Shown: positions 3,411 to 43,039 of the stretch, piece after piece
Numbering within the stretch: position 1 is the first letter of the stretch
How the letters are laid out: every line of letters begins with the position of its first letter
Source: Isoetes taiwanensis
Taxonomy: Eukaryota > Streptophyta > Lycopodiopsida > Isoetales > Isoetaceae
Length of the DNA: 64,000 bases
Direction of reading: 5' to 3'
Assembly: GCA_021234155.1 (NCBI GenBank)
Contig: JAJEKV010000018.1
Coordinates: 14,330,925-14,394,924, forward strand
Notes under the pieces: generated by a model
The model's database searches: none
The model's input: the letters and a program-made list of their open reading frames with translations, nothing else
What the model was told of the DNA's origin: nothing
Made by a program: the position numbers and the translations under genes

Positions 3411-3698
3411 TGACGAGGTACATTTTATCAAAGAAATGCTTATAGAAGAACCACTAGGATCATATAGTCTAGCAACTCCTAGCACCAGGAAAATTGAGTT
3501 GATCCCTTTAATTAGAGAGTGTGCACTACCCTCTGAAGATGGCAGAAGAGGTTGTTTATGGTTTGATGGAGGAATATCAAAGAAATTGAATGTAGCTTCA
3601 TCTGCAGGCTATATTAAAAGATACCGCCAATAAACTTTTGGCCAAGGTAGGAAGAATTTTTCCCCAAATAACTTCTAATGCAGTGAGAATACAAGGCT

Positions 3699-4460: not shown

Positions 4461-4593
4461 AAGAAATCCTATATGTCTTTGCAGGAAAAGACATGTACTC
4501 ATTTTTGGATGGTTTTTCGGGGTTTAACCAGATTAGTATCAAAGAGGAAGACCAGCCAAAGACTTCATTTATCACTCCTGGGGTACTTATGCT

Positions 4594-14048: not shown

Positions 14049-15639
14049 ATGGGTCCAAAGCAAAAATTTCCAGCAGAGCAAGAACCATTAGAAGATGTTG
14101 ATGCACCAGATCATTGCAGAGAAAGGCCATTGCCTTCAAGTTTCTCAACTAGCCTGCTTCAAAACATGCCATATCAATTTGAGTTGAATGTCCCTGTTCC
14201 CTTGCCTACTTTTGATTCCAGTATGAGTGCTAACAACTTTTTGAGAATATTTGAAGATTATTACAGGGATTTTGGTTTCAAAAAAGGGTGCAAGCTTTCA
14301 GAATTTGAAAAATGTTTCAAAGAAGAGAGTCAAGCTGGTGCTTGGTTAACTTATGAGAAGTTAATGGGTACCACCTCATGGGATGAGCTCGTCAAGAAGT
14401 TCTTGGACAGGTTTGGTAAGTTAGCTGCTCCAAAAGATTTGGTTAATGAGTTGCAAAGTTTTTCTATACATGCAGGAGAAAGTGTGAATCAGTACAAAGA
14501 AAGGTTTAGTACATTTATGAGTAGGTATCAAAGGGCACAGGTCACAATTCCAACCCTTTTTTTAGTTACTACTTTTATCAATGGCTTGGAAAGAAGACCA
14601 GATATCCAAAGGAAGTTGCTCAAGATCCAAGCTGCTGAAGGTTTTGATTCCATATACAAAGTTTTTACCAAAACCACTGACCTGACTCAGATGCTCTCTA
14701 CCTTACCTGACAAACATCACATTTCCCACCATAATCATGACCCTTTTTACCCTGATGCTACTGATGCACAGTATGACCATCACTCTTCCATCCCAGTTTA
14801 CGCCATACAGAAGGAAAAGAAAAAATCTAAAGAGGAGGAAGCTAATTCCCAGGTTGCAGAGGTTAAGGCAGACCTATCTAAAGTTACTGAGGCTTTAGCA
14901 GAATTAACCAAACAATTGGTTGAACTCAAGGCTACAAGAACAGGTAGAACTTATCCTGAATGTATTCATTGCAATAGGAACTCTCATCCATCAGAAATTT
15001 GCTATTGGCAAGTGTGTCCTAAATGCAATAGGAAAGGTCACTTTGGAAAGGAATGTCCTGTTTGTTCTTTTTGTAAAGAAATTGGCCATACTGACATCAA
15101 GTGTGTTGTTAAGGAATACTTTGCTAAGTAGGAAAAGGAGAAGAGACCAGAATCCAAACCTCCTGTGAGATTTGCTGAACAAAGTACTTCTATAAGGTTT
15201 ATTCAAGCTACAGAAGTTCCCAAAGCTGAAGAAGTTATGGTAGTGCAAACTAGAAGTATGAATGAAGCCAATGTACATGCTGAATCAAGTAGACACCCCA
15301 CTGCCAGGTCTTCACCACCTATAATGGAATCACCTGCTCAAATGATAGCTCCTCCCCCACAACAAAAATATGGTAAGAAAGGCCAAGACATTGATGAAGT
15401 TGATGTTTTGCTCAAAAACTCCAAACTAAGTGTGGATCTCTTCACCTTGCTAAAGAATGCACCTAGCTATAGAAAAAGGGTACTTCAGCAAACTGGTGGT
15501 GAGGCATTGAATGCTTGTGTAAATTTCACTGTTGCCACTAATCTTGTTCTAGCACAGAATGAAGAAGACCCTGGAGCATTCACATGTTCAGCTGCTTTAG
15601 GGGGTTATACTTTCTCAAATGTGTTGCTTGATGGGGGAT
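14049..15639 (+). pseudogene. Element 2 gag and protease N-half (one nonsense codon, then interrupted)
   Basis: Gag starts at the ATG 42 bases after the LTR (MGPKQKFPAEQEPLEDVD). It continues through the capsid segment and three CCHC knuckles (CIHCNRNSHPSEIC, CPKCNRKGHFGKEC, CSFCKEIGHTDIKC). A TAG at 15,129-15,131 replaces a glutamine codon kept in elements 3 and 6. The same frame reopens and runs through the linker to the protease motif VLLDGG. There the LTR of element 3 interrupts it at 15,640. The protease resumes at 25,733 after the GGGAT target duplication. Confidence 0.9.
15635..15639 (+). other. Target site duplication GGGAT, left copy (element 3)
   Basis: GGGAT directly precedes TGTTGCCC of element 3, and GGGAT directly follows its last CAACA at 25,728-25,732. 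Removing the insertion and one copy restores the protease reading LLDGGSP. Confidence 0.95.
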
Positions 15640-17480
15640 TGTTGCCCCCAAAGGGCAACATACTAACTGTTAGCTCATGTGTTGAAGTAGGTCAAGTTAT
15701 TGTGGAAGAATTAAATCAAAAGGAGCTTGGTAGTCAACATTGATATGAAGGTCAAACAATATCAATCTTCAAAGGTCAACTCCCATGAAAAATGCTCTAT
15801 CAGAAGTCAAAGGTTTTCAAAAGATGCTCTATACTATTCTGGGTTGTGAAGATTGGAAAATGCTTTTTGAAGTTTGGAAGACAAAGTTTGGAAGACCCCA
15901 TGGTATTAGATTCCACCCCCTAGTCATTTTTATCCATTTTCTTACCCCCATTTTCCTAGTCATATTCCCCTTATGCTTATATTCTCCCTTGCTCACCTTT
16001 TTGCCAAATCACACCTTGTTTGCCTAATTCCTTTTCTCTAATGCCTTTTGCCTTTCCAATTCATATCCCTTTTCCCATTCTTATCACACCTTTATAAATA
16101 CCTCTAGTCCATTTCTTGTTTGGAATTTTATGATCATTTTGCTTTGCCCACCATTGTGCCTTAAATATTCATGTTACCCATGGAATATCCCAATGCATGG
16201 TATCTAGACCTAGCATATTCCCCAAAAAAATTAGGGTTGCCATCTCCTCAAATGATCAAATTACCTAACTATTTTATAAGGCACCCTTTGAAACCATGGC
16301 CTAGCTTTTCTAAATGGCTGAATACAGCATATTCTTGGTTTATACTTCCAAAAATACGGCCACCGTATCGCGCAAACTCTGGAAAAATACAGTGAAGAAC
16401 CCTAAACTTAGAAACTTGCTCGAATCACGCCGGAATTGGGATCTTAAGCTACAAAAATTACCTATTCTTGGATTCCCGCTCATCAGCATCCCATTAAGCC
16501 TATAATCAAGCCCTAAGATGTCGGAATCATTAAATCTAAATCTATACACCGGGGAAAACAATGACAGAGTTTTTTGAAGGCCCAGACGCATCAAACCTCG
16601 ACATTGATACATGCTGAGCATGATCTGATGACGTTCATGAAGTATCTGAGTGTTCCACAGTTCGATTTGAGAAAATTGGACTGATATTTTTGATTTGATA
16701 TTATTTGTTGACCTTCTAAGCCATGTTGATGATTGATCTATGATCCTAAGACTCTTATTTACCTTGTACTACCTTCAGATCAATGGAAATTGCCTGCCAA
16801 GTATTTAAAAAGTTGACTGTCATGATCCTTTAGTATTTTTGCATCACAAACATTTTTACAGTAGAGTATTCCTTCATTTTTCCCTGCATATGACCATTTG
16901 CACTTCCTTCTCCATCATATTTGCACCTGTGTGCACAAAAATTCCGCAAAAAATCCATCCCAAACTCAAGTTACCATTTTTTTGCATTCTGTCTGATACA
17001 AGTTTAGACTGATATTCACAAAACAGTGCCAAAAAAATAGTTTTAGTGATCTAAATTATGATTTGAATGCATGCCCCTCACCTTTGGGATCTACATTGCA
17101 CCTCAGCTTTGGAATTCCTTCAAAATTCAACCTACAACTCAAGTTACAAAAGTCTGAGCTCTGTTTGTAGTTTTGACTGATATTGACCAAAATTTGACCC
17201 AACTTAGAGATCGAATATCTTGCAAATTAAAACTCAGACTTGGTCAAGTCACAGTCATTTGACCTTGGAAATCAATCCTTCTGTGAGATCTGCATTGATT
17301 TGAGTAAGAGGTCCATATTCTAGAATTGGGAAAGGTATGAGAACTCTGTAACTGAGCTTTTTCTTTGAGAAATTCTTGTGTAGATTGATCACCTCAAGTG
17401 ATCTGGAGGTTCTAACCCCAACTTGAGTGGAAACTCAAGTTGGCTCCTTGTGTTTGACTCTCTAGCCAGGTTGGGGTCCA
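15640..17480 (+). repeat. Element 3 5' LTR
   Basis: It starts with the TGTTGCCC/GGGCAACA hairpin (15,640-15,660). The end is slightly damaged, reading GGGGTCCA where the 3' copy has GGGGGTCAACA. Compared with the 3' LTR it lacks about 40 bp near 17,246, between two short CAAG repeats, and it lacks the (CTAT)n-tailed insertion. Confidence 0.92.
16093..16100 (+). promoter_or_regulatory. Candidate TATA box of element 3 LTR
   Basis: TATAAATA lies about 450 bases into the LTR in the context CCTTTATAAATACC, a strong plant TATA match. It recurs at 24,301-24,308 in the 3' LTR. Transcript start about 30 bases downstream is inferred. Confidence 0.6.
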
Positions 17481-17483
17481 TCT

Positions 17484-17501
17484 TGGAGGTTCTACCGAGA
17501 T
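17484..17501 (+). other. Element 3 primer-binding site
   Basis: TGGAGGTTCTACCGAGAT follows the LTR after TCT. It is identical to the site of element 1, and its first eleven bases are repeated in U5 at about 17,404. Confidence 0.8.
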
Positions 17502-17521
17502 CTTCCTGGATCTCAAAACTC

Positions 17522-19351
17522 ATGGCTCCTAAACAAAAATTTCCAGCAGAACAAGAGCCATTAGAAGATATTGATGCATCAGATCGTTGCAGAGAAAGGC
17601 CATTGAATTCAAGTTTTTCAACTAGCCTGCTTCAAAACATGCCATATCAATTTGAATTGAATGTCCCTGTTCCTTTGCCTACTTTTGATTCCAGTATGAG
17701 TGCTAATAACTTCTTGAGAATATTTGAGGATTATTACAGAGATTATGGCTTCAAGAACGGTTGCAAGCTCTCAGAGTTCGAAAAATGTTTCAAAGAAGAA
17801 AGTGAAGCTGGTGCTTGGTTAACTTATGAAAAGTTAATGGGTACCACTTCATGGGATGAACTTGTCAAGAAGTTCCTGGATAGATTTGGTAAGCTAGCTG
17901 CTCCAAAAGATTTGGTTAATGAATTGCAAGGTTTCTCTATACATGCAGGAGAGAGTGTGAATCGGTACAAGGAGAGGTTTAGTACATTTATGAGCAGGTG
18001 TCAAAGAGCACAAGTCACCATCCCAACTCTGTTTTTAGTCACTGCTTTTATTAATGGTCTGGAAGGAAGACCATATATCCAAAGGAAGTTGCTCAAGATC
18101 CAAGCTGCTGAAGGGTTTGATTCTATATACAAAGTCTTTGCCAAAACCACTGATTTAACTCAGATGCTCTCTACCTTGCCTGACAAGCACTATGTTCCTC
18201 ACCATAACCATGACCCGTTTTACCCTGATGCTACTGATGCACATTATGATCACCACCCTTCTATTCCAGTTTATGCCATACAGAAAGAAAAGAAGAAATC
18301 TAAAGATGAGGAAGCAAGTTCTCAGGTTGCAGAGGTGAAGTCAGATCTATCTAAGGTTACTGAAGCCCTAGCAGAAATAACCAAACAATTGGTTGAACTC
18401 AAGGCTGCAAGAACAGGTAAAACTTACCCTGAATGTATTCATTGCAATAGAAATTCTCACCCATCAGAAATTTGTTATTGGCAAGTGTGCCCCAAATGTA
18501 ATAGAAAAGGCCACTTTGGAAAGGAATGTCATGTTTGTTCTTTTTGTAAAGAGGTCGGCCATACTAATGCTAGGTGTGCTGTTAAGGAATATTTTGCTAA
18601 GCAGGAAAAAGAGAAGAGACCAGAGCCTAAACCTCCTGTGAGATTCGCTGAACCAAGCACCTCTATAAGATTTATTCAAGCTACAGAAGCTCCTAAATCT
18701 GAAGAAGTTATGGTGGTACAAACTAGAAGCATGAATGAAGCTCAAGTACATGCTGAACCAAGTAGGCATTCTACTGCCAGGTCTTCACCACCTGTAGTGG
18801 AATCATCTGCTCAAATCATAGCCCCACCCCCTCAGCAAAGATATGGTAAGAAAGATCAAGACTTTGATGAGGTTGATGTTTTGCTTAAAAATTCCAAGGT
18901 GAGTGTGGATCTTCTTACCTTGTTAAAGATTGCACCTAGTTACAGAAAAAGGGTACTTCAGCAAACTAATGGTGAGGTATTAAATGCTTGTGTGAATTTT
19001 ACTGATGCCACTAACCTTGTTCTAGCCCAGAATGAAGAAGACCCTGGTGCATTTACATGTTCAGCTACTTTAGGAGGATATACCTTCTCAAATGTGTTAC
19101 TTGATGGTGGATCTCCCCTAAATATTATGCCATATCACATTATGAAAAAATGTGGTTTCGAGGTGGACAAGAAAGCTTCTATACTATTGAGATCTTTTTA
19201 TAATGCTAAGATCACCCCTATTGGTGTGGTAACTAAAGTGCCTGTTAATACAAAGGGCATAACTGTAGCTGCTAACTTTATTGTGGTAGCTTTTGAAGAC
19301 ATAAGGGATGAGTCTGATATCTATGATTTACTTTTAGGAAGGAGGTGGTGA
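17522..19351 (+). pseudogene. Element 3 Gag and protease, open segment to a premature TGA
   Basis: The frame starts at MAPKQKFPAEQEPLEDID and includes a Gag capsid of about 250 residues, a Lys/Glu-rich segment, three zinc knuckles, a basic and proline-rich linker, and the aspartic protease. The protease carries LLDGGSPLNIMPYHIMKKCG and, near its end, DIYDLLLGRRW. A TGA replaces the Leu codon after GRRW that elements 2 and 6 keep. Downstream residues continue in the same frame, so this is a single substitution. The triple knuckle is more than the one or two usual in Ty3-type Gag. Confidence 0.92.
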
Positions 19352-19357
19352 GCTACT

Positions 19358-20278
19358 GTGGATGCTAGACCAGTCTGGTCTCAAGGGAGATGTACCATCT
19401 CCAATGGCTCTCAGACTGCTACAATCTATAATCAAGATGGCTCCTATGGTTCCAGTGAGGAGGTAAACTTTATTAAGGAAATGCTAATTGAAGAACCTTT
19501 GGGATTTTACAGAGTAAAAAATACAAGACCAAGGAAATATGAAATGGTTCCTCTCATCATGGAATGTGCACTCCCCAACAAACAAGGACCATCAGGATTC
19601 TTATGGTTTGATGGAGGTATTTCTAAAAAACTAAATATTGCATCATCTGCTGCTATTTTGAAAGATTCCTCTCATAAACTTTTAGCTAAAGTAGGGAGAA
19701 TCTTCCCCCAAATTACATCTAATGTAGCAGAATATAAGGCTTTGATTGCAGGTCTTCAGGAAGCCAAAGCTATGGATATTGCCAACATCCACATTTTTGG
19801 TGACTCACAATTAATTTGTAGACAAGTTTCAGGAGATTACCAAACAAAAAATGCAGATATGGAGCTCCTAAAAAACCAAGTAATGGGAGTGCTTTCGAGT
19901 TTTGCTTCATGGGAGATTACTCACATACCAAGAGAGGAAAATGTGGAAGCTGATACCCTATGCAGGGAAACTCTCATGACACACCTAACTGAGGGAGCTA
20001 TTCCAGAGGAAGACCTTGATGCTAGTGAGGTAAAAGCTCTTTGTCCTATTCTAACCATTAATGCATCAGAAGAAAAGGATACTGAAGAGATTACCATTAC
20101 AAAAAATGGTAAAACTAGAACCCTGTTTGTTGGAGATCTCATTGAATACCAAAATAGGGAGAATATACAAATGTTCTTTGAAGAAAGGAAGGAAGTGTTT
20201 GCTTGGAATTATTCTGAGCTTACTGGTATTAAAGCTGAGGTATGCCAATTTGAAATCAAGATTAAGGAAGGGTGTAAA
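19358..20278 (+). pseudogene. Element 3 upstream RNase H (RVT_3 / aRNH type)
   Basis: This segment holds a complete type-I RNase H placed between protease and RT. First Asp is in LWFDGG, Glu in SNVAEYKALIAGLQEA, second Asp in GDSQLICRQVSGDYQ, and last Asp in HIPREENVEADTLCR. The form matches the extra RNase H of plant Tat elements, which normally follows RT. A linker with TLFVGDLIEYQNRE and a Trp-rich EVFAWNYSEL leads into RT. The frame is lost near 20,279 by a short deletion. I infer that this domain supplies the RNase H activity of the element. Confidence 0.9.
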
Positions 20279-20279
20279 C

Positions 20280-22901
20280 CAACTGAGAAGAATTAATGCT
20301 TCATTGATGGGATTGATTAAAGATGAGTTGGATAAAATGCTAGATGCAGGTGTTATTATTGAAATTATTAATCCAGAATGGGTGTCTTGCATTGTACCTG
20401 TAGAGCAAAAAAGTGGTGCCTTAAGGATATGTATTGATTATCGAGACCTCAACAAAGCCACCATCAAGGACTGCTATCCCTTGCCTTTTTTAGAAGAAAT
20501 CTTATATGCTGTAGCAGGGAAAGAGGTGTACTCATTTCTAGATGGATTTTCAGGGTTTAATCAAATTGGCATTAAGGAAGAAGACCAACCCAAGACCTCT
20601 TTTATTACCCCTTGGGGAACTTATGCAATGAAAAGAATGCCTTTTGGACTAATGAATGCACCTGCTACTTTCCAGAGGGCTATGGATGTTATTTTTAGGC
20701 CTATGTCTCCTCAAGAATTCAGAGTTTATTTGGATGACCTTTGTTTAGGATCTCACCCTACTAATCATTTAGAATTGCTGGCAAAAATATGTTCTTTTTG
20801 CAGGGAATCTGGATTCAACCTTAACCCAAAGAAATGTATTTTTTTTGCATCCAAAAGGCAACTTTTGGGACACGAGGTATCCAACAATGGCATACAAGTG
20901 GCACAAGAAAAAGTTGAAGCCCTCAAAAAACTGGTGCCCCCCAAAAATTTGAAGCAGGTCAAAAGTTTTATTGGCATGACTAGTTTTCTTGGGATGTATA
21001 TTCCTAATTTTGCTCACATTATAAGTCCTATTTCTAAGCTGACAAGAATAGGCAGGATCTCCAAATCTGAGAGCAAGTATGTTCCTGTCACATGGTCATC
21101 AGATTGCCAAGAGTCTTTTGAGTTGCTTATAAAGTCCATTTGTGAAGCAACTCTTCTAAAAAAACCTGATTTGGACAAGCCATTTGAGGTCTACATTACT
21201 ATTACTAAAAAGGCCATAGGCCTAGCTATTCTGCAGGACAAGCACACCATAGCTTTTGCCAGCAAACAGTGGAGTTCAACTGAAGAAAAATACACCAGAA
21301 TGGAGAAGAGTGCTGCTGCTCTCATGTTCCTCATTGACAGACAAGGTCATTTATTATTGAAGAGTTCCGTTCAAGTTTATATGAAACAAAATCCAATAGG
21401 TTTGTTATTTGGTAAGGCTACCTCTAAACCAAAAATTCAAAGGTGGGCTTGCAAGCTACAAACCTTTCATATTTCCATAAAAGAGTTACATCATGTGAAG
21501 AGTCCCAGTCTTTATTTACCTTACATTTTCTTTGATCATGAGGATGTAGTAGAAGTTGTTGACTTTGTGGATGCCTTAACTTATTTACAGGCATGTGATG
21601 AAGAGCAGAACCAACAGGATTGGCAGCTACCTATAAAGAATTTTCTACAATTCAAGGAAATGCCCTCAGGACTGACCTCGAGCCAGCAAAGGAGATTTAA
21701 AGAAAAGTGCAGGCAATTCAAAATGATTAATGATGTTTTATGTAAAGTTAACAGGGATGGATTATTACTGAGGTGTGTCAATGAAGAGGAATCTGCTTTG
21801 ATCATTAGAGAAATGCATGAAGGAGTATGTGGAGGCCATTTTGCTGGAGATACTACTGCCAAGAAAATTCTCAGGTCAGGTTATTATTGGCCTACAATAT
21901 TTAAAGATTGTTATACTGCTATAAAATCTTGCCACAAGTGCCAAATATTTGGTAAAAGGATCCTTCTCCCAGCTGCACTAAACCCCATCATTTCTCCAGG
22001 ACCTTTCCAAATGTGGGGATTAGATTATATTGGTCCTATTAACCCCCCTTCTGCAGGACAACACCAGCATATTATTGTAGCTACAGATTACTTTACCAAG
22101 TGGGCAGAGGCAATTCCTTTAAGACAAGCTAATGCCATCACAACAGCAAAGTTCTTACATGAGTATATTTGTGCACGGTTTGGTATCCCCCTACAATTAC
22201 ATTCTGATAGAGGTACTCCTTTTGTGAATGAAGTCATTTCTAATTTATTGACCATTCTTAAAGTCAAGCATACCAAGAGTTCCTCTTACTACCCCCAAGG
22301 TAATGGTCAAGCAGAAGCTACTAATAAAGTTTTGAAAAGCATTTTGCAGAAAACAGTGGATGATAATCAAAAGGACTGGCATGTCAAACTGGTGAATGCT
22401 CTATGGGCTTATAGAGTCACCATTAAAACAGCAACCACCCATACACCCTTTAACTTAGTATATGGCATTGAAGCTGTGCTTCCAGTAGAACTTGAGCTGC
22501 CATCTCTGAGGTTGGCCCATAAGTTGTGTTTGCCTTTTGAGTATGCTTTGCAGGAAAGATTGGATACCCTTCTGCATTTAGAAGAATATAGAATGGAAGC
22601 TGAGAATGCTAATTTGCTAAAAAAAGCCAAGGATTTGGCTGCTTTCAAAGCTGCTCATAAAATACAAGGGACTTTCAAGACTGGAGAGTTAGTCCTAAAA
22701 TGGAATAAATCAAGGGAAGACTTGGCTGGTAAGTTTGAAAACCTTTGGGAGGGCCCCTATGAGGTGTTGGAACCTGCAGGTACCAATTCCTATTGGTTAA
22801 AGGAACTAACTTCAGGGATGCCACTTCCAAATCCTATCAACACTATTCACCTGAAAAGGTACTGGGATCAGCATATATGTTTGTCTCTTTTTATGTTCTA
22901 G
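20280..22901 (+). CDS. Element 3 RT, degenerate RNase H and integrase, open frame
   Basis: The frame is open from the RT start (QLRRINASLMGLIKDEL) to TAG at 22,901. RT shows RICIDYRDLNKATIKDCYPLPF, FLDGFSGFNQI, FGLMNAPATFQRAMD and the catalytic VYLDDL. The RNase H that follows has FEVYITITKKAIGLAILQ and VYMKQNPIGLLFG, with Thr and Lys where catalytic Asp residues are expected, so it is probably a structural connection. Integrase has HEGVCGGHF and CHKCQ (HHCC finger), LDYIGP, SDRGTPF and NGQAEATNK. Its C-terminal module ends NTIHLKRYW. It is expressed, if at all, as part of the gag-pol polyprotein. Confidence 0.92.
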   Translation, partial: QLRRINASLMGLIKDELDKMLDAGVIIEIINPEWVSCIVPVEQKSGALRICIDYRDLNKATIKDCYPLPFLEEILYAVAGKEVYSFLDGFSGFNQIGIKEEDQPKTSFITPWGTYAMKRMPFGLMNAPATFQRAMDVIFRPMSPQEFRVYLDDLCLGSHPTNHLELLAKICSFCRESGFNLNPKKCIFFASKRQLLGHEVSNNGIQVAQEKVEALKKLVPPKNLKQVKSFIGMTSFLGMYIPNFAHIISPISKLTRIGRISKSESKYVPVTWSSDCQESFELLIKSICEATLLKKPDLDKPFEVYITITKKAIGLAILQDKHTIAFASKQWSSTEEKYTRMEKSAAALMFLIDRQGHLLLKSSVQVYMKQNPIGLLFGKATSKPKIQRWACKLQTFHISIKELHHVKSPSLYLPYIFFDHEDVVEVVDFVDALTYLQACDEEQNQQDWQLPIKNFLQFKEMPSGLTSSQQRRFKEKCRQFKMINDVLCKVNRDGLLLRCVNEEESALIIREMHEGVCGGHFAGDTTAKKILRSGYYWPTIFKDCYTAIKSCHKCQIFGKRILLPAALNPIISPGPFQMWGLDYIGPINPPSAGQHQHIIVATDYFTKWAEAIPLRQANAITTAKFLHEYICARFGIPLQLHSDRGTPFVNEVISNLLTILKVKHTKSSSYYPQGNGQAEATNKVLKSILQKTVDDNQKDWHVKLVNALWAYRVTIKTATTHTPFNLVYGIEAVLPVELELPSLRLAHKLCLPFEYALQERLDTLLHLEEYRMEAENANLLKKAKDLAAFKAAHKIQGTFKTGELVLKWNKSREDLAGKFENLWEGPYEVLEPAGTNSYWLKELTSGMPLPNPINTIHLKRYWDQHICLSLFMF

Positions 22902-23769
22902 AACTTAGACAAGTTAGAATTAAAGTTAAAAATTAGAATAGGTTGGATTAGATTTCACTTTGTCTTAAATTTAGAACTAATGTCTTCATTGAGTTTATAT
23001 TTGCAGATTAGCCAGTATGAAGGATGAGCTATCAAACAGCTTCAGAACAGGGATTTTTATTAATTGCCAAGTGTCATTTGCAGGAGCACCCTTTTTCCAT
23101 CTTCATTCATCTGTCTCATTATGGTCCTGCCCTCCATTCAGCCATGTACTCTCATTTTATCTCCCTAAATGTGCACTCTGCAAATTCAGCTTCACCATCA
23201 TAGCAGAGTTGCAAGGATCAAGATTAACTTGTTTGTATGTTTCCATGACAGGTGCATCCTTTCTCCATCTTTATTCATCTGCCATAAGTGGTCCTGCTAT
23301 CCATTTAAACTCCTTATTCTTGTTCTCATTCCCAAAAGAAAGCACTCTGCAATTCAGCTTCACCATCATAGCAGAGTTGCATTTTTAAGGATCAGGGAGG
23401 CACACATTTTCTTGTTTTGGCGACATCTCAACTTTTGCACATCCACTCCACCCTTTTACACTCTATTTCCATCACCACCTGACCATATTCACACTCATTC
23501 TTACCTTTTTTTCACACATTTTTCTTGTTTTGGCGAAATTCCAATATTTGCACACTCATCTCATCTCATACACTACATTTCCATCACTACCTTGTCATAT
23601 TCACACTCATTCTCACCTTTTTTTTTTACTACCAATGCACTCACTTTTATCCCACCAACACTTACACTTTACACCCTCTTTTTACCATAATCCTCATTCA
23701 TACACTTTGGAGCAGATATGAAGACCCTTTATGGCTGAGGGGACCAGCCATTTTCTTGTTTTGGCGAGA
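22902..23769 (+). other. Element 3 3' UTR: hairpin modules, CA/CT tract, polypurine-tract hairpin
   Basis: This region has no gene. Two hairpins ACTCTGC/GCAGAGT (23,175-23,181 with 23,203-23,209, and 23,344-23,350 with 23,371-23,377) lie in tandem modules. The motif TTCTTGTTTTGGCGA occurs at about 23,409, 23,521 and 23,754, each followed by similar G-poor sequence. The last one abuts the LTR. The GGCTG/CAGCC hairpin lies at 23,733-23,749. Confidence 0.8.
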
Positions 23770-25727
23770 TGTTGCCCCCAAAGGGCAACATACTAACTGT
23801 TAGCTCATGTGTTGAAGTAGGTCAAGTTATTGTGGAAGAATTAAATCAAAAGGAGCTTGGTAGTCAACATTGATATGAAGGTCAAACAATATCAATCTTC
23901 AAAGGTCAACTCCCATGAAAAATGCTATATCAGAAGTCAAAGGTTTTCAAAAGATGCTCTATACTATTCTGGGTTGTGAAGATTGGAAAATGCTTTTTGA
24001 AGTTTGGAAGACAAAGTTTGGAAGACCCCATGGTATTAGATTCCACCCCCTAGTCATTTTTATCCATTTTCTTACCCCCATTTTCCTAGTCATATTCCCC
24101 TTATGCTTATATTCTCCCTTGCTCACCTTTTTGCCAAATCACACCTTGTTTGCCTAATTCCTTTTCAAGTCTCTGGGGGTCCGTCATATGTCCTCATGGA
24201 CGGTGCCAATGCGGCATGACGTAAAAATACTATCTATCTATCTATCTAATGCCTTTTGCCTTTCCAATTCATATCCCTTTTCCCATTCTTATCACACCTT
24301 TATAAATACCCCTAGTCCATTTCTTGTTTGGAATTTTATGATCATTTTGCTTTGCCCACCATTGTGCCTTAAATATTCATGTTACCCATGGAATATCCCA
24401 ATGCATGGTATCTAGACCTAGCATATTCCCCAAAAAAATTAGGGTTGCCATCTCCTCAAATGATCAAATTACCTAACTATTTTATAAGGCACCCTTTGAA
24501 ACCATGGCCTAGCTTTTCTAAATGGCTGAATACAGCATATTCTTGGTTTATACTTCCAAAAATACGGCCACCGTATCGCGCAAACTCTGGAAAAATACAG
24601 TGAAGAACCCTAAACTTAGAAACTTGCTCGAATCACGCCGGAATTGGGATCTTAAGCTACAAAAATTACCTATTCTTGGATTCCCGCTCATCAGCATCCC
24701 ATTAAGCCTATAATCAAGCCAAGATGTTGGAATCATTAAATCTAAATCTATATACCGGGGAAAACAATGACAGAGTTTTTTGAAGGCCCAGAAGCATCAA
24801 ACCTCGACATTGATACATGCTGAGCATGATCTGAAGACGTTCATGAAGTATCTGAGTGTTCCACAGTTCGATTTGAGAAAATTGGACTGATATTTTTGAT
24901 TTGATATTATTTGTTGACCTTCTAAGCCATCTTGATGATTGATCTATGATCCTAAGACTCTTATTTACCTTGTACTACCATCAGATCAATGGAAATTGCC
25001 TGCCAAGTATTTAAAAAGTTGACTGTCATGATCCTTTAGTATTTTTGCATCACAAACATTTTTACAGTAGAGTATTCCTTCATTTTTCTCTGCATATGAC
25101 CATTTGCACTTCCTTCTCCATCATATTTGCACCTGTGTGCACAAAAATTCCGCAAAAAATCCATCCCAAACTCAAGTTACCATTTTTGCATTCTCGTCTA
25201 CGATACAAGTTTAGGGGATATTCACAAAACAGTGCCAAAAAAATAGTTTTAGTGATCTAAATTATGATTTGAATGCATGCCCCTCACCTTTGGGATCTAC
25301 ATTGCACCTCAGCTTTGGAATTCCTTCAAAATTCAACCTACAACTCAAGTTACAAAAGTCTGAGCTCTGTTTGTAGTTTTGACTGATATTGACCAAAATT
25401 TGACCCAACTTAGAGATCGAATATCTTGCAAATTAAAACTCAGACTTGGTCAAGGTTTTCACCCTCGCTTGCCTACCACTTTTCTGAACAAGTCACAGTC
25501 ATTTGACCTTGGAAATCAAACCGCCTGTGAGATCTGCATTGATTTGAGTAAGAGGTCCATATTCTAGAATTGGGAAAGGTATGAGAACTTTGTAACTGAG
25601 CTTTTTCTTTGAGAAATTCTTGTGTAGATTGATCACCTCAAGTGATCTGGAGGTTCTAACCCCAACTTGAGTGGAAACTCAAGTTGGCTCTTTGTGTTTG
25701 ACTCTCTAGCCAGGTTGGGGGTCAACA
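23770..25727 (+). repeat. Element 3 3' LTR
   Basis: It runs from TGTTGCCC to GGGGGTCAACA and is followed by target duplication GGGAT. It contains an 80-bp insertion at about 24,167-24,246 that the 5' LTR lacks. The TATA box is at 24,301. Near 25,190-25,215 two CTG sites look miscalled relative to the 5' LTR. Confidence 0.93.
24167..24246 (+). mobile_element. Short insertion with (CTAT)n tail, possible LINE 3' end or SINE
   Basis: About 80 bp with GC-richer composition interrupt the 3' LTR of element 3 and are absent from its 5' LTR (junction near 16,035). It ends ACGTAAAAATA followed by five CTAT units, the kind of short microsatellite tail seen on some non-LTR retroposons. The target duplication is too short to define. 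The copy at 37,227-37,318 carries it too. Confidence 0.55.
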
Positions 25728-25834
25728 GGGATCCCCCCTAAATATCATGCCATATCACATTATGAAGAAGTGTGGTTTCGAGGTGGACAAGAAAGCTTCT
25801 ATATTATTAAGGTCTTTTTATAATGCTAAGATTA
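25728..25834 (+). pseudogene. Element 2 protease fragment between elements 3 and 4
   Basis: After the GGGAT duplication the frame resumes as SPLNIMPYHIMKKCGFEVDKKASILLRSFYNAKI, the piece of element 2 protease that directly follows LLDGG at 15,634. It is cut again at 25,835 by the LTR of element 4, leaving GATTA (25,830-25,834) as that element's left target duplication. Confidence 0.93.
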
Positions 25835-26526
25835 TGTTGACCGGGTTTTTGGCACCCGGTCAACATGAAAAAAGAGAGCCATTGGAAGGGGGGGGGGTCG
25901 ATTATAAAGCCCAAATGTTGTAAAGGTCTAAGGCACCAAAAAATAAAAAAGGGCCTAGATCTAGTTGTTTAAATTTAAGGGCTTCTAAGATTTTTTAAAT
26001 GGTTGAAGAGGGGTACATTATCTAAGGCTAAGATGAAGAGGCAAGATCAAAGGTGGAGATTAAAAAAGACAAAAATTAAAGGTTGAGATAAAGAGGCAAG
26101 ATCAAGGGTGGAGATGAAGGGGTCAAAATTAAAGGTTAAGATGAAGAGGCAAGATCAAAGGTGGAGATTAAGAGGCAAAAAAATCAAAGGTCAAGATAAG
26201 AAGTAATGTTTATAAAAAGATTCTTGAGGAGCACGAGCTCCTCCTCTTGCCTTGCTCCAAGTTCTTGGGATGGTGGCAGCTCCTCCTTGAATTGATCAAT
26301 GGCCCCTCCATGGTTCAGAGACATGGAGGGACCCTTTTGTATTTGAAGTTTTGTGCTTATATGAATTTTCTTTTGGGCCCAAAGTTATTCCATTCCAAGT
26401 TTTTCTTCAAATCTCTCATTCTACACTGATTTCATATTGCAAGCCTTTGATTTCATATTACAAAGATCGGTGATCCCGATGTTCCTTTGAGGCCACATTG
26501 GGGGGTTGTGGGAAAATCCGCCAATG
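25835..26526 (+). repeat. Element 4 5' LTR
   Basis: It starts with a 12-bp perfect stem, TGTTGACCGGGT with ACCCGGTCAACA (25,835-25,865). The end reads CCGCCAATG where the 3' LTR has CCGCCAACA. Purine-rich tandem repeats built on AGATGAAGAGGCAAGATCAA run from about 26,025 to 26,200. TATAAAA at 26,211-26,217 is a candidate promoter. A hairpin GAGGAGC/GCTCCTC lies 15 bases further (26,226-26,243). Confidence 0.88.
26211..26243 (+). promoter_or_regulatory. Element 4 TATA box and adjacent hairpin
   Basis: TATAAAA is followed by GAGGAGC-ACGA-GCTCCTC, a 7-bp stem with a 4-base loop. The hairpin would lie at or just before the expected transcript start. The same pair is in the 3' LTR at 28,651 and in the solo LTR at about 39,266. 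Confidence 0.5.
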
Positions 26527-28269
26527 TAATGGAGGTCCCACCGAGATCCAAACTTCCCCGGGGATCATATTTTGATGTCAGCCAGATTTTTCCATCATCC
26601 ATTTTTTTTCTATGTTTTGAAAGTGCAGATCAAGAAGTGGATATTAAGGATATCGCTAGATTATTTCTCGGGAGAGCCAAAGAAGCCACCCTCCAATATC
26701 TACCCAATGCTCCCATTCTTTATTTTCCTTGCCTTTTTTTCCACTTGCTACCTGATTCCATCCTACCAAGGAAAGAATTTATTTGCATCTCTCATATGCC
26801 TTGATCTTTGCTTATATCTACCCTTACTATGGTCTGCCCGGTTGCCTTCTGAAAACTCCGTGAAATCTCTGTTCTTTCCATCTGCAAAAAAAAAAAGGGA
26901 GAAGGTTTTGGGATCTAATCCAACACATTCTGTTGAGATTGAGCTTCAAGGTGCAGGCCACTACTCCATACCTGCAGAGCAAAGAAAAAAGAAAGGGAAT
27001 AGAAGAGGATGCTGTGCAGCCGCCATACCTGCCCTTTATTCTGTCAATAGAAAAATTAAAAGAATGAAAGAATGCCTTTTCCGTGCTCCATTCTGCCATA
27101 TCCATCACTTTCTTTGCCGTTATGCCTCTACCATCTGCAAAAACTGAAGCCCTTTTCATTCAGAGGAAGATTTATAGAAGGACATTCATAGATTAAGCTG
27201 GACCTGAAGAAAAGGTTTGTGCACGCTGTAAGCTTTGTTCTCTGTTTGCCATGGCCGTGTTCTGAAGAAGAAGAAAAAAAATAATAATCAGGGAAAGCTT
27301 GTTGCTCCTGGACCTGTAGAAGAAAGAAAAAGAGTTAAAAAGTAGGAAGCAGGTCGCTGGTCCACCACTTTGCCGGCCACTTACCCGCCTTCTCACCGAA
27401 AGCACTTCCGATCTGGCTTATACGCCCATCACGATTTTTTATCCTTTGCAAGTTTTTTTTTATTTTTCTCCTTCTAACCTTTGCTTTTAACCTTTGCTTT
27501 TCTTGTTTTCTATTCTTTCCTTTCATCTCATGTTCTAACCTTTGCTTTTCATATTTTTATTTCGCCTTTCATCACACATTTCTAACCTTTGCTTTCCATG
27601 TTTTTTTCTCTTTCATTCATTTTCTAAACATTTGCTTCCAAATTCCAATATTTTCTCACTCTTTTCTAGTTCTTAACCATTGCTTTCATTTTGCAACAAT
27701 GTTTCTTTACCATTTTTTCCTTGTCTAAAACTATGGTCCATCCTTATTGCCTCAAACATCATTATATTTGCCCTCATTGTTACACCATTGCCACAATTTT
27801 TTGTTTGGGCGCCCCTCCTTTCTTATACCATTTTTCCAAAAATATAGCCATCTTGCCCCAAGCATTACATGTGTCTTTCCCTAAAGCCCGAAATTACCAT
27901 TGATTTTCTATTATCATGGCACTCATTATTATTATCATCATTCTATCAAGTTCAAGTCTCGGTTATTATCACCAAATTATTATCATTATTATATGGTGTT
28001 GGAGTACACCCCTAAAACCTCCAAATATTATTATTATCCTATGGTGTTGAGTACAACCCTAAAACCTCCAAATATTATTATTATCCTATGGTGTTGAGTA
28101 CACCCTAAAACCTCCAAATTATTATCATCATTTCGAAGTTCAAGTCTCGGATATCAAAACTTTGGTTGTGTGTTCCTTATTGAGTCTAAGGCACCAACTA
28201 TTGTACTAAATATATGGAAAACTTTGAAGTAAGAGGGCCGAGGGGACCGCCCATTTTTGTTTATGTAGA
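26527..28269 (+). other. Element 4 internal region, non-coding or captured sequence
   Basis: No retroviral domain is seen. Open frames at 26,487-26,804 and 26,572-27,147 overlap in different frames. One contains the stretch DIKDIARLFLGRAKEATLQY, which I do not recognise and which could be a fragment captured from a host gene. From 27,450 to 27,700 the strand is T- and C-rich. A unit of about 48 bp (TGGTGTTGAGTACACCC, then CTAAAACCTCCAAATATTAT) is repeated three times at about 27,993-28,120. Confidence 0.6.
27993..28120 (+). repeat. Three tandem 48-bp units in element 4
   Basis: Units begin at about 27,993, 28,041 and 28,088. Each carries CCTAAAACCTCCAAAT followed by an ATT/TTA run. The array is flanked by GTTCAAGTCTCGG on both sides (about 27,949 and 28,138). 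Confidence 0.75.
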
Positions 28270-28971
28270 TGTTGACCGGTTTTTGGAACCCGGTCAACAT
28301 GAAAAAGAAAAGAAAGAGAACCATTGGAAGGGGGTCGATTATAAAGCCCAAATGTTGTAAAGGTCTAAGGGACCAAAAAATAAAAAGGGCCTAGATCTAG
28401 TTGTTTTTAAATTTAAGGGCTTCTAAGATTTTTTTAAATGGTTGAAGAGGGGTACATTATCTAAGGCTAAGATGAAGAGGCAAGATCAAAGGTGGAGATT
28501 AAAAAAAGACAAAAATTAAAGGTTGAGATAAAGAGGCAAGATCAAGGGTGGAGATGAAGGGGTCGAAATTAAAGGTTAAGATGAAGAGGCAAGATCAAAG
28601 GTGGAGATTAAGAGGCAAAAAAATCAAAGGTCAAGATAAGAAGTAATGTTTATAAAAGATTCTTGAGGAGCACGAGCTCCTCCTCTTGCCTTGCTCCAAG
28701 TTCTTGGGATGGTGGCAGCTCCTCCTTGAATTGGATCAATGGCCCCTCCATGGTTCAGAGACATGGAGGGACCCTTTTGTATTTGAAGTTTTGTGCTTAT
28801 ATGAATTTTCTTTTGGGCCCAAAGTTATTCCATTCCAAGTTTTTCTTCAAATCTCTCATTCTACACTGATTTCATATTGCAAGCCTTTGATTTCATATTA
28901 CAGCATCGAAGTGATCCTGATGTCTGCCTTTGAGGCCACCTGTTGGGGGTTGTGGGAAAAATCCGCCAACA
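28270..28971 (+). repeat. Element 4 3' LTR
   Basis: It starts TGTTGACCGG and ends CCGCCAACA, followed by target duplication GATTA. The last 31 bases can pair as TGTTGG/CCAACA. It differs from the 5' LTR by scattered substitutions and homopolymer lengths. Confidence 0.9.
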
Positions 28972-29690
28972 GATTACTCCTATTGGTGTGGTGACTAAAG
29001 TGCCTGTTAATACAGAAGGCATAACTGTAGCTGCTAACTTTATTGTAGTGGCTTTTGAAGATATAGGGGATGAATCTGACATCTATGATCTACTTTTAGG
29101 AAGGAGATGGTTAGCCACTTTGGAATACTAGGGGCCACGGTCTCAAGGAGATGTACCATCTATAATGGCGGGGACCGCCTTCTACGGAGTTTACAACCAA
29201 GATGGCTCCTATGGTTCCAAAGAAGAGGTAAATTTTATTAAAGAAATGTTGATTGAAGAACCTTTGGGATCTTACTGTAATAAAAATACAAGATCAAGAA
29301 AATATGAAATGGTTCCTCTTATTATGGAATGTGCACTCCCTGTGAGGACAAGGACCATCAGATTCTTATGGTTCGATGGAGGTATTTCGAGAGAAAATTA
29401 AATATTGCATCATCTCTGCTATTTTAAAAGATTCTTCTCACAAACTATTAGCTAAAGTAGGAAGAATCTTCCCCCAAGTCACATCTAATGTAGCAGAATA
29501 TAAAGCTCTGATTGCAGGTCTTCAGGAGGCCAAAGCTATGGATATTGCTAACATCCACATTTATGGTGACTCACAATTAATTTGTAGGCAAGTTTCAGGA
29601 AACTACCAAACAAAAAATGCAGATATGGAGCTCTTGAAAAATCAAGTAATGGGAGTACTCTCGAGTTTTGCTTCATGGGAGATCACTCAC
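28972..29690 (+). pseudogene. Element 2 protease end and upstream RNase H, duplicate with many errors
   Basis: Element 2 resumes after element 4 with protease residues ITPIGVVTKVPVNTEGI, then GRRW and the RNase H start. It is a near copy of 39,587-40,301. From about 29,110 it is garbled at several CAG/CTG positions, for example a scrambled stretch at 29,115-29,185 where the other copy reads normally. The RNase H piece with NVAEYKALIAGLQEAKAMD and GDSQLICRQVSGNYQ is readable up to 29,690, where the minus-strand LTR of element 5 begins. Confidence 0.85.
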
Positions 29691-29845
29691 TGTTGACCCC
29701 CAACCTGGCTAGAGAGTCAAACACAAGAAGCCAACTTGAATTTATGCTCAAGTTGGGGTTAGAACCTCCAGATCACTTTAGGTGATCAGTCTACACAAGA
29801 ATTTTTCAAAGAAAAAGCTCAAATATCAAGTATTCATACCTTTCC
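29691..29845 (-). repeat. Element 5 3' LTR end, duplicate copy
   Basis: It is equivalent to 40,302-40,456. It begins (plus strand) TGTTGACCCCCAACC and is cut at TTTCC (29,841-29,845) by the LTR of element 6. Confidence 0.85.
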
Positions 29846-31580
29846 TGTTGACCCTAAACGTGGTTTATAGGTCAACACAAGAATCCAATTCAAGTTTTCA
29901 CCAAATTGGGGTTAGGGACCTCCAGATCACTTAAGGTGATCAGTCTATGCAAGAAAATTCCAAAGATAAGTTCAAAAAGTTTGAGTTCTATACCTTTCCC
30001 ATTTTCAAAAAATGGTACCTTTGCCAAAACAATTGTGGTGTTGGGATGCAGATCGATTTTTTGAGTCAGATGCTGTAGACTTGATCAAAAAAGTTGTAGG
30101 TAACCAACAATAAAAGCCTCCGACCAAGTCGGAGATTTAACTGTGAGTTATTCGAGCTCAAACTGAGGTCAAATTTTGGTCAATAGAGGTCAAATGTAGA
30201 AAATAAAGGATCAGGAATTGAGATTTGAGTTGCCAATCACTTTTTTGAGAATTTCCAAAGCAGATAGGTTGCAATGGTGTTGGGGAGGAGAGGCAAGCGG
30301 TCAAATCCTAGTTTGGAGGTGTATAGGTATTTTTTAACTGGATTTGGCAAAATACAGTCAAAACTATTTCAAACCCGAGACCAACTTTTTTGAATTTGAG
30401 CAACTTGATACCAATTTGGATTGATATGAAGGTAAATATATCAAGATAACAACAGATTCATAGCTTCAAGTACAAGAAAATAATCATCAAAAAGTCATAA
30501 GGTAATTTCTGAAAGTAATGTCAACTAAATCTTGTAGATCCAGCTTGAGGAGGAGAGCTCAAGAACTTCAAGGATCGCCCAGATCTTGCTCAAGAATGAT
30601 CAATGTATGATCTGAATATTCCGGGCCTTCAAAAACTTCTGTTGTTGATTCCCCGGTATATAAGTTTGAATTTTATGATTTAGGCATCTTAGGGCTTAGA
30701 TTTAGGCTTAATTTGATGCTTAAGAGCGGGGGATCCAGGTTTAGGTAGGTCTTAAGGTTTAAAAACTCGGTTCGTGATTCGAGCTTGTTTCAGTTTTAGG
30801 TCCGCCATTTTGTATTTTCAAGATCCGCATACGATATGGTCACCGTATTTTTTCGAAGTATAAACCATGAATATTCCGTATTTTGAGTTTTGAAAAGCTA
30901 GACTATGGTTTGGAAGGGTTACCCATAAAAACATTGAAGGAGTGAGCCATTGGAGCAAGGGCAACCCTAATTTTGGGGAATATACCGATTTTAAGCATTA
31001 TGAGGGAGAATATTCCACATAACATGGCCCTTTATAGCACAATGGTGAATAGGCATGGGGAGGCATAGGAAACAAAAAGGCAAAAAGCCATGGGGAAATG
31101 GTGGGAATAAATTATGGAGGAATAAGGATGTATGGGGAAGAAAAATTAGGCAAGATATGATAGGATATGCAAGAGTGAACAAAGGGAGTATAAACATAGG
31201 AAAAAAAGGCTAGGAAATTTTAAAAAGGGCAAGAATAAAATGAGTGAGAATGGCTAGGGGGGAATGGAACCTAGGAATGGAAAATACCATAGGGTCTTCC
31301 AAACTTTGAACTTCCAATCTTCAAAAAAATGCCTTCCAAACTTCTTACCCCAGAATCTCTTAGAGCATATTCTTGACTAAGCACTTTGACCTTAAATAAA
31401 ATACCTCATGTGAGTTTTTGATCCTTGAGCACTTGTTGACTTGAAGAATGAACACCCTTTGACCTCCATATCAAATGTTGAATGCCAAGAATCTTCCAAA
31501 CTTTGACCTAGTCTTCTAAAGTAAATTGACCTAGTTTGAACATATAGAGATCTCATTAGCATGTTGCCCTTGGGGCAACA
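29846..31580 (-). repeat. Element 6 3' LTR, duplicate error-rich copy
   Basis: It matches 40,457-42,185 along its whole length but differs by dozens of one-base indels and by changes at CAG/CTG. The tip hairpin is shortened (TGTTGCCCTTGGGGCAACA). It should not be used for dating. Confidence 0.85.
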
Positions 31581-32345
31581 TCTCACAAAACAAAAGAATG
31601 GCTGGTCCCCCAGCCATAAAGGGTCTTCAATCTTGTACCAAGGTGCTTGAGTGAGAATCATGGTAGAGAGAGAATGTAATGTGCAAGTGTATGGAATAGA
31701 AATGAAGGTGGGGGAGGGGGAATGTGAATGGAATATGATAAGTGAAAAAGAGTGAGAATGAGTGTGAATATGATAGGATAGTGATGGAAATGGAGTGTAT
31801 GGGGGGGAGGAAAAATGTGAAAATGTTGAGGTCTCGCCAAAACAAAAGAATGTGTGTCTCCTTAATATCTTCAAGAGCAACTCTGCTAGGATGGTGAAGC
31901 TGAATTGCAGAATGCTTTCTTCCTGGGGAAATGAACAACAAGAATAAGAAGTTTAAATGGATGGCGGGACTACTTATGGCAGATGAATAAAATGGGAAAA
32001 GGGTGCACATGTCATGGAAACACACAAACTAGTTAATCTTTAATACCTTGCAACTCGCTATGGTGGTGAAGCTGATTTGGCAGAGTGCCCTTATGGGAAT
32101 GAGAATAGGAGTAAGAAGTCTAGATGAATAACAGGACCACTTATGGCGTGTGGATGAAGATGGAAAAAGGGTGCTCCCTCAGATATGGCACTTGGTAAAG
32201 CATTAGTAATCACTATTTTCTTGAGATCATTCATATCTTTGTCCTCAAGTCAGCCCAACCTACAATCATAAAATTAACCCATTAAAATAACATGCTCAAA
32301 GAATTAAATAAATCTAACTATGCTAATTCTACCATAGATTTTTTT
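31581..32345 (-). other. Element 6 3' UTR, duplicate error-rich copy
   Basis: It corresponds to 42,186-42,960, with both hairpin modules recognisable. The polypurine-tract hairpin is damaged at about 31,601-31,616. No gene is seen; the frames at 31,392-32,025 are composition artefacts. Confidence 0.75.
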
Positions 32346-32960
32346 TTTTTCTCTAATGCAAAAAGAGGGACAAGCATGCATGTTGGTCCCAATACCTCTT
32401 CAGATGCAAGACATTAATAGATTTGGTAACAGCATTTCTGAGGCAACCTTTGTAGCCAATATGAGTTGGTACCGCAACTTTCGCACCACAAAAAGGTCCC
32501 TCCCAAATATTATCAAATTTGCCTTTGAGTCTTTTTGACTTATTCCATTTGAGGACAAGTTTTCCCCTTCTCTAAAAGTGCCTTGTATCCTATGTGCACT
32601 TTAAAAGCGCCGGATCTTTGGCCTTTTTTCAAGCAAATTAGTATTCTCATTTCTCCATCCTATATTCATCTAGGTGTAGCAAGGCATCCAATCTTTCCCG
32701 AAGGTATACCCAAAAGGTAAACATAGTTTATAAGCTAACCTCGTGGAAGGCAACTCAAGTTCCAATAGTAAGACCGCCTCTATGCTAAAACCAAATTGAA
32801 GGGTGTATGATTTGTAGTTGCTTTTGATAGTGACTCAGTTCCAAAGTGCATCCACTATTTTGACATGCCAATCTCTCTTTATCGATCTCAATCACCGTAA
32901 GGTACTTTTTCAACACTTTGTTAGTGGCTTCAATTTCGTCCATTACCTTGGGATACAGGA
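32346..32960 (-). pseudogene. Element 6 integrase C-terminus, duplicate, broken off
   Basis: Minus-strand integrase C-terminal sequence matches 42,961-43,575 with many indels. At about 32,960 it stops in the NGQAEATNK region and joins plus-strand element 3 sequence. Confidence 0.8.
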
Positions 32961-32978
32961 GAGCTTCCTTTTGTTTCA
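32955..32978. other. Junction: minus element 6 integrase to plus element 3 RNase H
   Basis: Left of the junction the sequence equals about 43,575; right of it, about 19,905. About ten bases between are unclear. This is the seam of the 13 kb / 10.6 kb duplication. Confidence 0.8.
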
Positions 32979-35965
32979 TGGGAGATTACCACATACCAAG
33001 AGAGGAAAAATGTGGAAGCTGATACCCTATGCAGGGAAACTCTCATGACACACCTAACCGAGGGAGCTATTCCAGAGGAAGACCTTGATGCTAGTGAGGT
33101 AAAAGCTCTTTGTCCTATTCTAACCATTAATGCATCAGAAGAAAAGGATATCGAAGAGATTACCATTACAAAAATGGTAAAACTAGAACCCTGCTTGTTG
33201 AGATCTCATTGAATACCAAAATAGGGAGAATATACAAATGTTCTTTGAAGAAAGGAAGGAAGTGTTTGCTTGGAATTATTCTGAGCTTACTGGTATTAAA
33301 GCCGGTATGCCAATTTGAAATCAAGATTAAGAAGGGTGTAAACCAACCGAAGAAGAATTAATGCTTCATTGATGGGATTGATTAAAGATGAGTTGGATAA
33401 AATGCTAGATGCAGTGTTATTATTGAAATTATTAATCCGTAATGGGTGTCTTGCATTGTACCTCAGAGAGCAAAAAAGTGGTGCCTTTTAAGGATATGTA
33501 TTGGATTATCGGTGACCTCAACAAAGCCAATTATCAAGGACTGCTATCCCTTGCCTTTTTAGAAGAAATCTTATATGCTGAAGCAGGAAAGAGGTGTACT
33601 CATTTCTAGATGGTGGATTTTCAGGTTTAATCAAATTGGCATTAAGAAGAAGACCAACCCAAGACCTCTTTATTACCCCTTGGGAACTTATGCAATGAAA
33701 AGAATGCCTTTGACCAATGAATGCACCTGCTACTTTCCCCCAGAGGGCTATGGATGTTATTTTTAGCCTATGTCTCCCTCAAGAATTCAGAGTTTATTTG
33801 GATGACCTTGTTTAGGATCTCACCCTACTAATCATTTAGAATTGCCGGCAAAAATATGTTCTTTTGCGGTGGAACTGATTCAACCTAACCCAAAAGAAAT
33901 GTATTTTTTGCATCCAAAAGGCAAATTCTTTGGGACACGAGGTATCCAACAATGGCATACAAGTGGCACAAGAAAAGTTAGCCCTCAAAACTCCGGGTGC
34001 CCCCCAAAAATTTGAAGCGTGTCAAAAGTTTTATTGGCATGACTAGTTTTCTTGGGATGTATATTCCTAATTTTGCTCACATTATAAGTCCTATTTCTAA
34101 GCTGACAAGAATAGGCAGGATCTCCAAATCGAGAGCAAGTATGTTCCTCGTCACATGGTCATCAGATTGCCAAGAGTCTTTGAGTTGCTTATAAAGTCCA
34201 TTTGTGAAGCAACTCTTCTAAAACCTGATTTGGACAAGCCATTTGAGGTCTACATTACTATTACTAAAAGGCTATAGGCCTAGCTATTCTCTTGCAGGAC
34301 AAGCACACCATAGCTTTTGCCAAAGAAACGGGAGTTCAAATCAAGAAAAATATACACCGAATGGAGAAGAGTGTCATTGCTCTCATGTTCCTCGATTGAT
34401 GCATACAGGTCATTTATTATTGAAGAGTTCCGCTCAAGTTTATATGAAACAAAATCCAATAGGTTTGTTATTTGGTAAGGCTACCTCTAAACCAAAAAAT
34501 TCAAAGGTGGGCTTGCAAGCTACAAACCTTTCATATTTCCATAAAAGAGTTACATCATGTGAAGAGTCCCAGGCTTTTATTTACCTTACATTTTCTTTGA
34601 TCATGAGGATGTGTAGTAGAAGTTGTTGACTTTGTGGATGCCTTTAACTTATTTGCTGTGCATGTGATGAAGAGCGTAACCAACAGATTGGCAGCCTACC
34701 TATAAAGAATTTTCTACAATTCAAGGAAATGCCCTCGGGGATCGACCTCGAGCCACAAAGGAGATTTAAAGAAAAAGTGCAGGCAATTCAAAAATGATTA
34801 ATGATGTTTTATGTAAAGTTAACGGGATGGATTATTACCAGGTGTGTCAATGAAGAGGAATCGCTTTGATCATTAGAGAAATGCATGAAGGAGTATGTGG
34901 AGGCCATTTTGCTGGAGATACTATCGCCAAGAAAATTCTCGTGTCGTTATTATTATTGGCCTACAATATTTAAAGATTGTTATATCAAGTATAAAAATCT
35001 TGCCACAAGTGCCAAATATTTGGTAAAAGGATCCTTCTCCTCACTTGCACTAAACCCCATCATTTCTCGGGACCTTTCCAAATGTGGGATTAGATTATAT
35101 TGGTCCTATTAACCCCCCCTTCACAGGACAACACCAGCATATTATTGTAGCTACAGTTACTTTTTACCAAGTGGGCAGAGGCAATTCCTTTAAGACAAGC
35201 TAATGCCATCACAACAGCAAAAGTTCTTACATGAGTATATTTGTGCACCTGGTTTGGTATCCCCCTACAATTACATTCCGATAGAGGTACTCCTTTTGTG
35301 AATGAAGTCATTTCTAATTTATTGACCATTCTAAAGTCAAGCATACCAAGAGTTCCTCTTACTACCCCCAAGGTAATGGTCAAGCAAGCTACTAATAAAG
35401 TTTTGAAAAGCATTTTGCGAAAAACAAAGGGATGATAATCAAAAGGGATCTGGTATGTCAAACGGTGAATGCTCTATGGGCTTATAGAGTCACCATTAAA
35501 ACAGCAAACCACCCATACACCCTTTAACTTAGTATATGGCATTGAAGTCAGGTTTTCCAAAGAACTTGAGCCGCCATCTCCAGGTTGGCCCATAAGTTGT
35601 GTTTGCCTTTTGAGTATGCTTTTGCGGAAAGATTGATACCATTCCCGCATTTAGAAGAATATAGAATGGAAGTTGAGAATGCTAATTTGCTAAAAGCCAA
35701 GGATTTGGCTTTTCAAAGCCGCTCATAAAATACAAGGGACTTTCAAGATCGAGAGTTAGTCCTAAAATGGAATAAATCAAGGGAAGACTTGGCTGGTAAG
35801 TTTGAAAACCTTTGGGAGGGCCCCCTATGAGGTGTTGGAACCTGCAGGTACCAATTCCTATTGGTTAAAGGAACTAACTTCGTGGATGCCACTTCAAATC
35901 CTATCAACACTATTCACCGAAAAGGTACCGGATCAGCATATATGTTTGTCTCTTTTATGTTCTAG
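32973..35965 (+). pseudogene. Element 3 pol duplicate (RNase H end to integrase), error-rich
   Basis: It is collinear with about 19,905-22,901, including upstream RNase H C-terminus (ADTLCRETLMTHLTEGA), RT, degenerate RNase H and integrase. Small indels occur every few dozen bases, often at CTG/CAG or in homopolymers, so no frame longer than about 130 codons survives. RT motifs are still visible (FIGMTSFLGMYIPNFAH near 34,030, LHSDRGTPFVNEV near 35,275). I judge it a low-quality consensus of an element 3 copy, not a naturally decayed relic. Confidence 0.88.
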
Positions 35966-42960: not shown

Positions 42961-43039
42961 CTAATGCAAAAAGAGGGACAAGCATGCATGCTGGTCCCAA
43001 TACCTCTTCAGATGCAAGACATTAATAGGATTTGGTAAC

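Follow-up and report, generated by a model that had tools for sequence, protein, structure and literature searches.

An archaeal-type RNase H ahead of reverse transcriptase in probable Tat-lineage Ty3/gypsy retrotransposons of Isoetes taiwanensis

The 64,000-nucleotide stretch of Isoetes taiwanensis DNA analysed here (the window; contig JAJEKV010000018.1, positions 14,330,925 to 14,394,924) raises the question of whether a second RNase H truly lies ahead of the reverse transcriptase (RT) in its retrotransposons, whether such an order is new, and where the additional domain came from. An RVT_3-type, archaeal-type RNase H (aRH) with intact D-E-D-D residues was found upstream of RT in all five window elements in which RT was found, in agreement with the original prediction for the coding elements. 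The five are elements 1, 3 and 8, an older host element (element 2 of that prediction) and a minus-strand element (its element 6). They are very probably copies of a single plant Tat-lineage family of Ty3/gypsy long terminal repeat (LTR) retrotransposons, arranged as in the published structure #2: gag-protease-aRH-RT-(dead RNase H)-integrase (INT). The protease-aRH-RT order in the window is real and ordinary, and it is already in print for club-mosses and gymnosperms.

Neumann 2019 (PMC6317226) characterises TatI, from club-mosses, and TatII, from gymnosperms, by an aRH located between protease and RT. Of the five Tat structures distinguished by Biryukov and Ustyantsev 2023 (PMC10508981), structure #2 places aRH ahead of RT in pol and ranks second in frequency; it is reported from their clusters E, F, G and J, in three club-moss species and in every gymnosperm genome studied. 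The original prediction had left room for an earlier report of the order, and both papers bear this out; novelty is not supported, since a published Tat clade has the same order. The accompanying premise, that the extra RNase H of plant Tat elements lies between the native RNase H and integrase, holds for the Ogre/Retand type and fails for TatI/TatII and structure #2. The window elements display the Ty3/gypsy order of protease, RT, RNase H and integrase, with two LTRs and a short target-site duplication (TSD), the LTRs and TSD being read for element 3. RT and INT place beside Tat; as in that lineage, the archaeal-type RNase H has D-E-D-D, and the native RNase H has decayed catalytically; as in structure #2 (TatI/TatII), aRH lies between protease and RT within pol.

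The pre-RT domain had been called a complete RNase H, which is supported by an RVT_3 score of 81.9 bits in element 3, by the aligned D-E-D-D residues and by the modelled fold. Residues were compared in an alignment of the window elements with 17 database proteins. All four D-E-D-D residues are present in the window aRH. In the native RNase H, the first D, the E and the second D are replaced by T, S and K in elements 1 and 3 and the minus-strand element; in element 8 the E and second D have become S and R, the first D lying outside the covered part. The RNase H behind RT is thus degenerate wherever its catalytic residues were read, as predicted. The native D, E and D are kept in the Athila-like and outgroup rows where covered, and are lost also in the aRH-bearing Tat rows and in the Pinus taeda protein P0046. 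Decay of the native RNase H is reported in all aRH structures (PMC10508981).

In a database search with an RT-INT query, 7991 candidates were scored and 482 proteins matched, of which 120 were listed. The RT tree comprised 98 rows: five from the window, of which two were partial, and 93 of the 120 listed proteins, each contributing a single RT stretch no shorter than 150 residues; the INT tree comprised 36 of the 120, chosen by hand, and three window rows. Athila and Ogre/Retand labels of tree rows are those we presume from names, domain content and motifs. Both trees put the elements beside plant Tat and outside the Athila-like rows, which covers a part of the phylogenetic check suggested with the original prediction. 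In the RT tree, the window rows fall together, beside the Tat rows and P0046 (89/81, moderate), and apart from the Athila-like rows (100/100). In the INT tree, the window and P0046 form a group (97/85) beside aRH-bearing Tat (97/90), all in one clade (98/94). Bootstraps were unsettled in the RT tree, as they were in the 71-row and 50-row aRH trees described below. Among the matches listed, identity in the top five database proteins is 36-40%, with alignments covering 43-92% of the query, and the one Pinus taeda protein, P0046, is 38% identical. Separately, P0002, P0006 and P0040 have intact native RNase H residues, with no aRH found in them, and form a group of their own beside the Tat and Athila-like rows in both trees; these are possibly of the aRH-less Tat Z type.

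Several observations weigh against the assignment to this Tat family. The likeness to published TatI/TatII is one of order rather than of directly compared sequence. The RT support for the Tat grouping (89/81) lies under the tool's star threshold, the window stem is long (0.62), and the trees disagree on P0046, which goes with angiosperm Tat by RT (98/94) and with the window by INT (97/85). A scan for the order elsewhere, also suggested with the original prediction, came back empty: aRH preceded RT in none of the 120 listed of 482 matched proteins, and apparently in none of eight matches to a junction query, judged from precomputed domains and four sequences. Of the latter, three resemble cellular RNase HI and P0248 reads as a Tat fragment; in P0247 aRH follows RT, P0242 contains RT alone, and P0246 and P0249 carry both aRH and native RNase H domains (the order was seen for P0246 only, native RNase H first). 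Because the literature calls the order frequent, these negatives are read as a sign that the collection holds few repeats from gymnosperms and club-mosses. With no more than 36-40% identity in the five best listed proteins, lineages of this kind would seem to be thinly covered by the database.

A single origin of the aRH common to the window and other Tat elements is neither rejected nor proven by the window data, and the independent acquisition proposed in the original prediction stands in the same position, as the aRH trees shift with sampling. Such a capture, from host or microbial RNase HI straight into the protease-RT junction and apart from angiosperm Tat elements, is unlikely. Two of the three samplings do give a best tree that joins the window aRH with prokaryotic RNase HI, apart from Tat aRH. 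However, a clade of window and Tat aRH was not rejected in the 26-row set (approximately unbiased test, p-AU 0.284, log-likelihood difference 0.86), nor in the 50-row set, where the best tree kept them apart (p-AU 0.42), and the 71-row tree, with the widest prokaryotic set, recovered them as one clade (96/84). Counting P0248 as prokaryotic lowered p-AU in the 26-row set to 0.051; the sequence of P0248 reads as a Tat fragment. One acquisition is also preferred in PMC10508981, whose authors call their own aRH tree unresolved. A further reading, in which the window represents a deep Tat sister lineage that captured its pre-RT RNase H from another source than angiosperm Tat, with native decay at least twice within Tat, is very unlikely.

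The rows of the aRH trees were window, Tat and prokaryotic sequences, with no plant host RNase HI. For the 71-row tree, usable segments came from 80 of 85 loci, and thinning at 60% identity left 54; the 50-row tree omits L083, L084, L085 and WIN1b and, of the 49 bacterial loci then left, one in every three (17). Only the 26-row set included the aRH fragment of element 8, and the prokaryotic P rows of that set had been retrieved with window aRH sequences as queries. Two plasmid searches yielded 6 and 14 records, all prokaryotic; the annotated ones among those listed were RNase HI or hypothetical proteins.

The published alternative to an aRH fused to RT is an aRH in a separate open reading frame (ORF), the Tat structure #3 arrangement. 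It would fit element 3, where the aRH ORF ends at 20296 in a frame other than that of RT, and the minus-strand element, where the frame changes just past aRH. In element 3 a stop also lies between protease and aRH. The separate-ORF arrangement is disfavoured: in three of the five elements the end of aRH is in frame with RT. Elements 1 and 8 are open over this junction, and the host copy has a single stop. The two shifts, moreover, occur at different places, as expected from separate lesions. With one open frame in elements 1 and 8, the separate ORF of structure #3 is not seen there. Most copies are damaged, since the N-terminal part of aRH lies in other frames in elements 1 and 8; given the in-frame linkage in three of the five, the fusion is probably ancestral, and the frameshifts are most simply lesions on an ancestral fused order.

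It is extremely improbable that the order arose locally through nested insertion or tandem duplication, or through an assembly error. The window is heavily nested and has a tandem duplication that breaks within aRH and integrase, but five elements share the order with aRH pieces up to about 50% apart in protein sequence, and one of them has clean LTRs and a TSD. The order is older than the local copies, as the original prediction had argued, because the diverged element 8 has it too.

Element 3, the focal copy, is a bounded LTR element (15640-25727) that starts with TGTTG, ends with CAACA and has the 5-bp target duplication GGGAT on both sides. Its LTRs are, by block, 99.7% (397 nt), 98.5% (1215 columns) and 97.8% (232 nt) identical, suggesting that it is not a fresh insertion. 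The gag-protease ORF includes Retrotrans_gag at about 17831-18064 (Pfam PF03732, 40 bits), three CCHC-type motifs in the gag part (residues 338, 356 and 372) and a protease DGG motif at residue 561; the protease part had blastp matches in 12 of the 120 listed proteins (best 6.7e-14). The modelled portion of the linker behind aRH (to residue 312) has a predicted local distance difference test score mostly below 60. The motif TGGAGGTTCTACCGAGAT also follows the element 1 LTR and recurs with one change each in the host element and the minus-strand element; it is a probable primer binding site and may resemble the 3' end of tRNA-Gln. Published main primers of non-chromoviruses are Ala, Arg, Asp, Lys and Trp, tRNA-Gln not being among them. 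Searches of the window for tRNAs and for Rfam families at gathering score were negative. A 173-codon ORF at 23169-23690, downstream of integrase and ahead of the 3' LTR, has tblastn matches in several copies and in many frames; this stretch is probably conserved non-coding sequence and not a gene.

Element 3 lies directly past the protease DGG codons (residues 561-563) of its older relative, the host element. Related insertions break that host at 15640 (behind the protease DGG, TSD GGGAT) and at 40302 (inside aRH, TSD CTCAC). Additionally, a tandem segmental duplication spans 19900-43571, with 19900-26524 matching 32969-39584 at 94.3% and 28269-32955 matching 38892-43571 at 95.3%; its spacing is 13.07 kb in one half and about 10.6 kb in the other. 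At its junction, near 32955-32969, an integrase fragment of the minus-strand element is joined to mid-aRH. A sixth apparent aRH copy is a product of this duplication.

Coordinates of the retrotransposon features in the window
Feature	Position	Strand	Remarks
Element 1, aRH then RT	3409-4538	+	aRH N-part in other frames; 3687-4538 one open frame over junction
Element 3, TSD GGGAT	15635-15639 (left), 25728-25732 (right)	+	read in sequence
Element 3, 5' LTR	15640-17480	+	TGTTG...CA; 3' end read by eye; pairs with 23770-25727
Element 3, gag-protease ORF	17423-19351	+	stop at 19349-19351
Element 3, probable primer binding site TGGAGGTTCTACCGAGAT	17484-17501	+	3 nt past 5' LTR
Element 3, aRH	19607-19969	+	D-E-D-D complete; RVT_3 81.9 bits; modelled fold; alignment
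Element 3, linker/pre-RT region	19970-20408	+	about 146 residues; frame change near 20250-20296
Element 3, RT	20409-20879	+	RVT_1 99.3 bits
Element 3, native Ty3/gypsy RNase H	21168-21467	+	degenerate, tether-like; RT_RNaseH 65.5 bits; catalytic residues lost
Element 3, integrase (H2C2 and rve core)	21780-22295	+	PF17921 42.6 bits; PF00665 44.3 bits
Element 3, 3' LTR	23770-25727	+	TGTTG...CAACA
Host element, aRH N-part	39735-40301	+	interrupted by nested element, TSD CTCAC
Host element continued, aRH C-part, linker, RT	53479-54723	+	one stop in linker; copy ends before native RNase H
Minus-strand element, aRH then linker	45570-46491	-	aRH in two frames; linker in RT frame
Element 8 (diverged), aRH and RT start	61332-62313	-	aRH N-part in another frame; 62069-61332 one open frame over junction

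Reverse transcription needs some RNase H, both for removal of the genomic RNA and for making the plus-strand primer. Judging from the sequence, the aRH would do this work, and the native RNase H may be kept as a structural tether on RT. The aRH could act while tethered to the RT N-terminus through the flexible linker of about 146 residues, or after release by the protease; an active part of structure #2 aRH in the reverse transcription complex has been suggested (PMC10508981). Read in this way, the family is a worked example of an RNase H swap, in which the acquired domain assumes the catalytic role and its predecessor degenerates, as has happened in retroviruses. The swap holds even with the new domain on the other side of RT, a point already in print. 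The window adds members to a known Tat order.

Among known systems, Tat structure #1 (examples being Trifolium, Medicago and Coffea proteins, which we take to be of Ogre/Retand type) shares with the window an archaeal-type RVT_3 RNase H, a degenerate native RNase H and related RT and INT, but its aRH lies between RNase H and INT (RT-RH-aRH-INT in the listed database proteins). Elements presumed to be Athila have related RT and INT and a similar protease and pre-RT region; unlike the window elements, they keep the native RNase H residues, had no aRH found in them and are separate on both trees. Parallels in oomycetes are described in the available portion of Ustyantsev 2017 (PMC5348765), where Archon and Chronos likewise gained an archaeal-type RNase H while the native one decayed, although there the aRH adjoins the native RNase H and RT is only distantly related. 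The available text of the DARTS paper (PMC8775202) has the archaeal RNase H fixed at several positions in different Tat lineages. The window elements resemble most directly Tat structure #2 (PMC10508981), which also combines a degenerate native RNase H with an aRH that precedes RT within pol, and TatI/TatII (PMC6317226), members of the OTA superclade in which aRH lies between protease and RT, this domain being what sets Tat apart.
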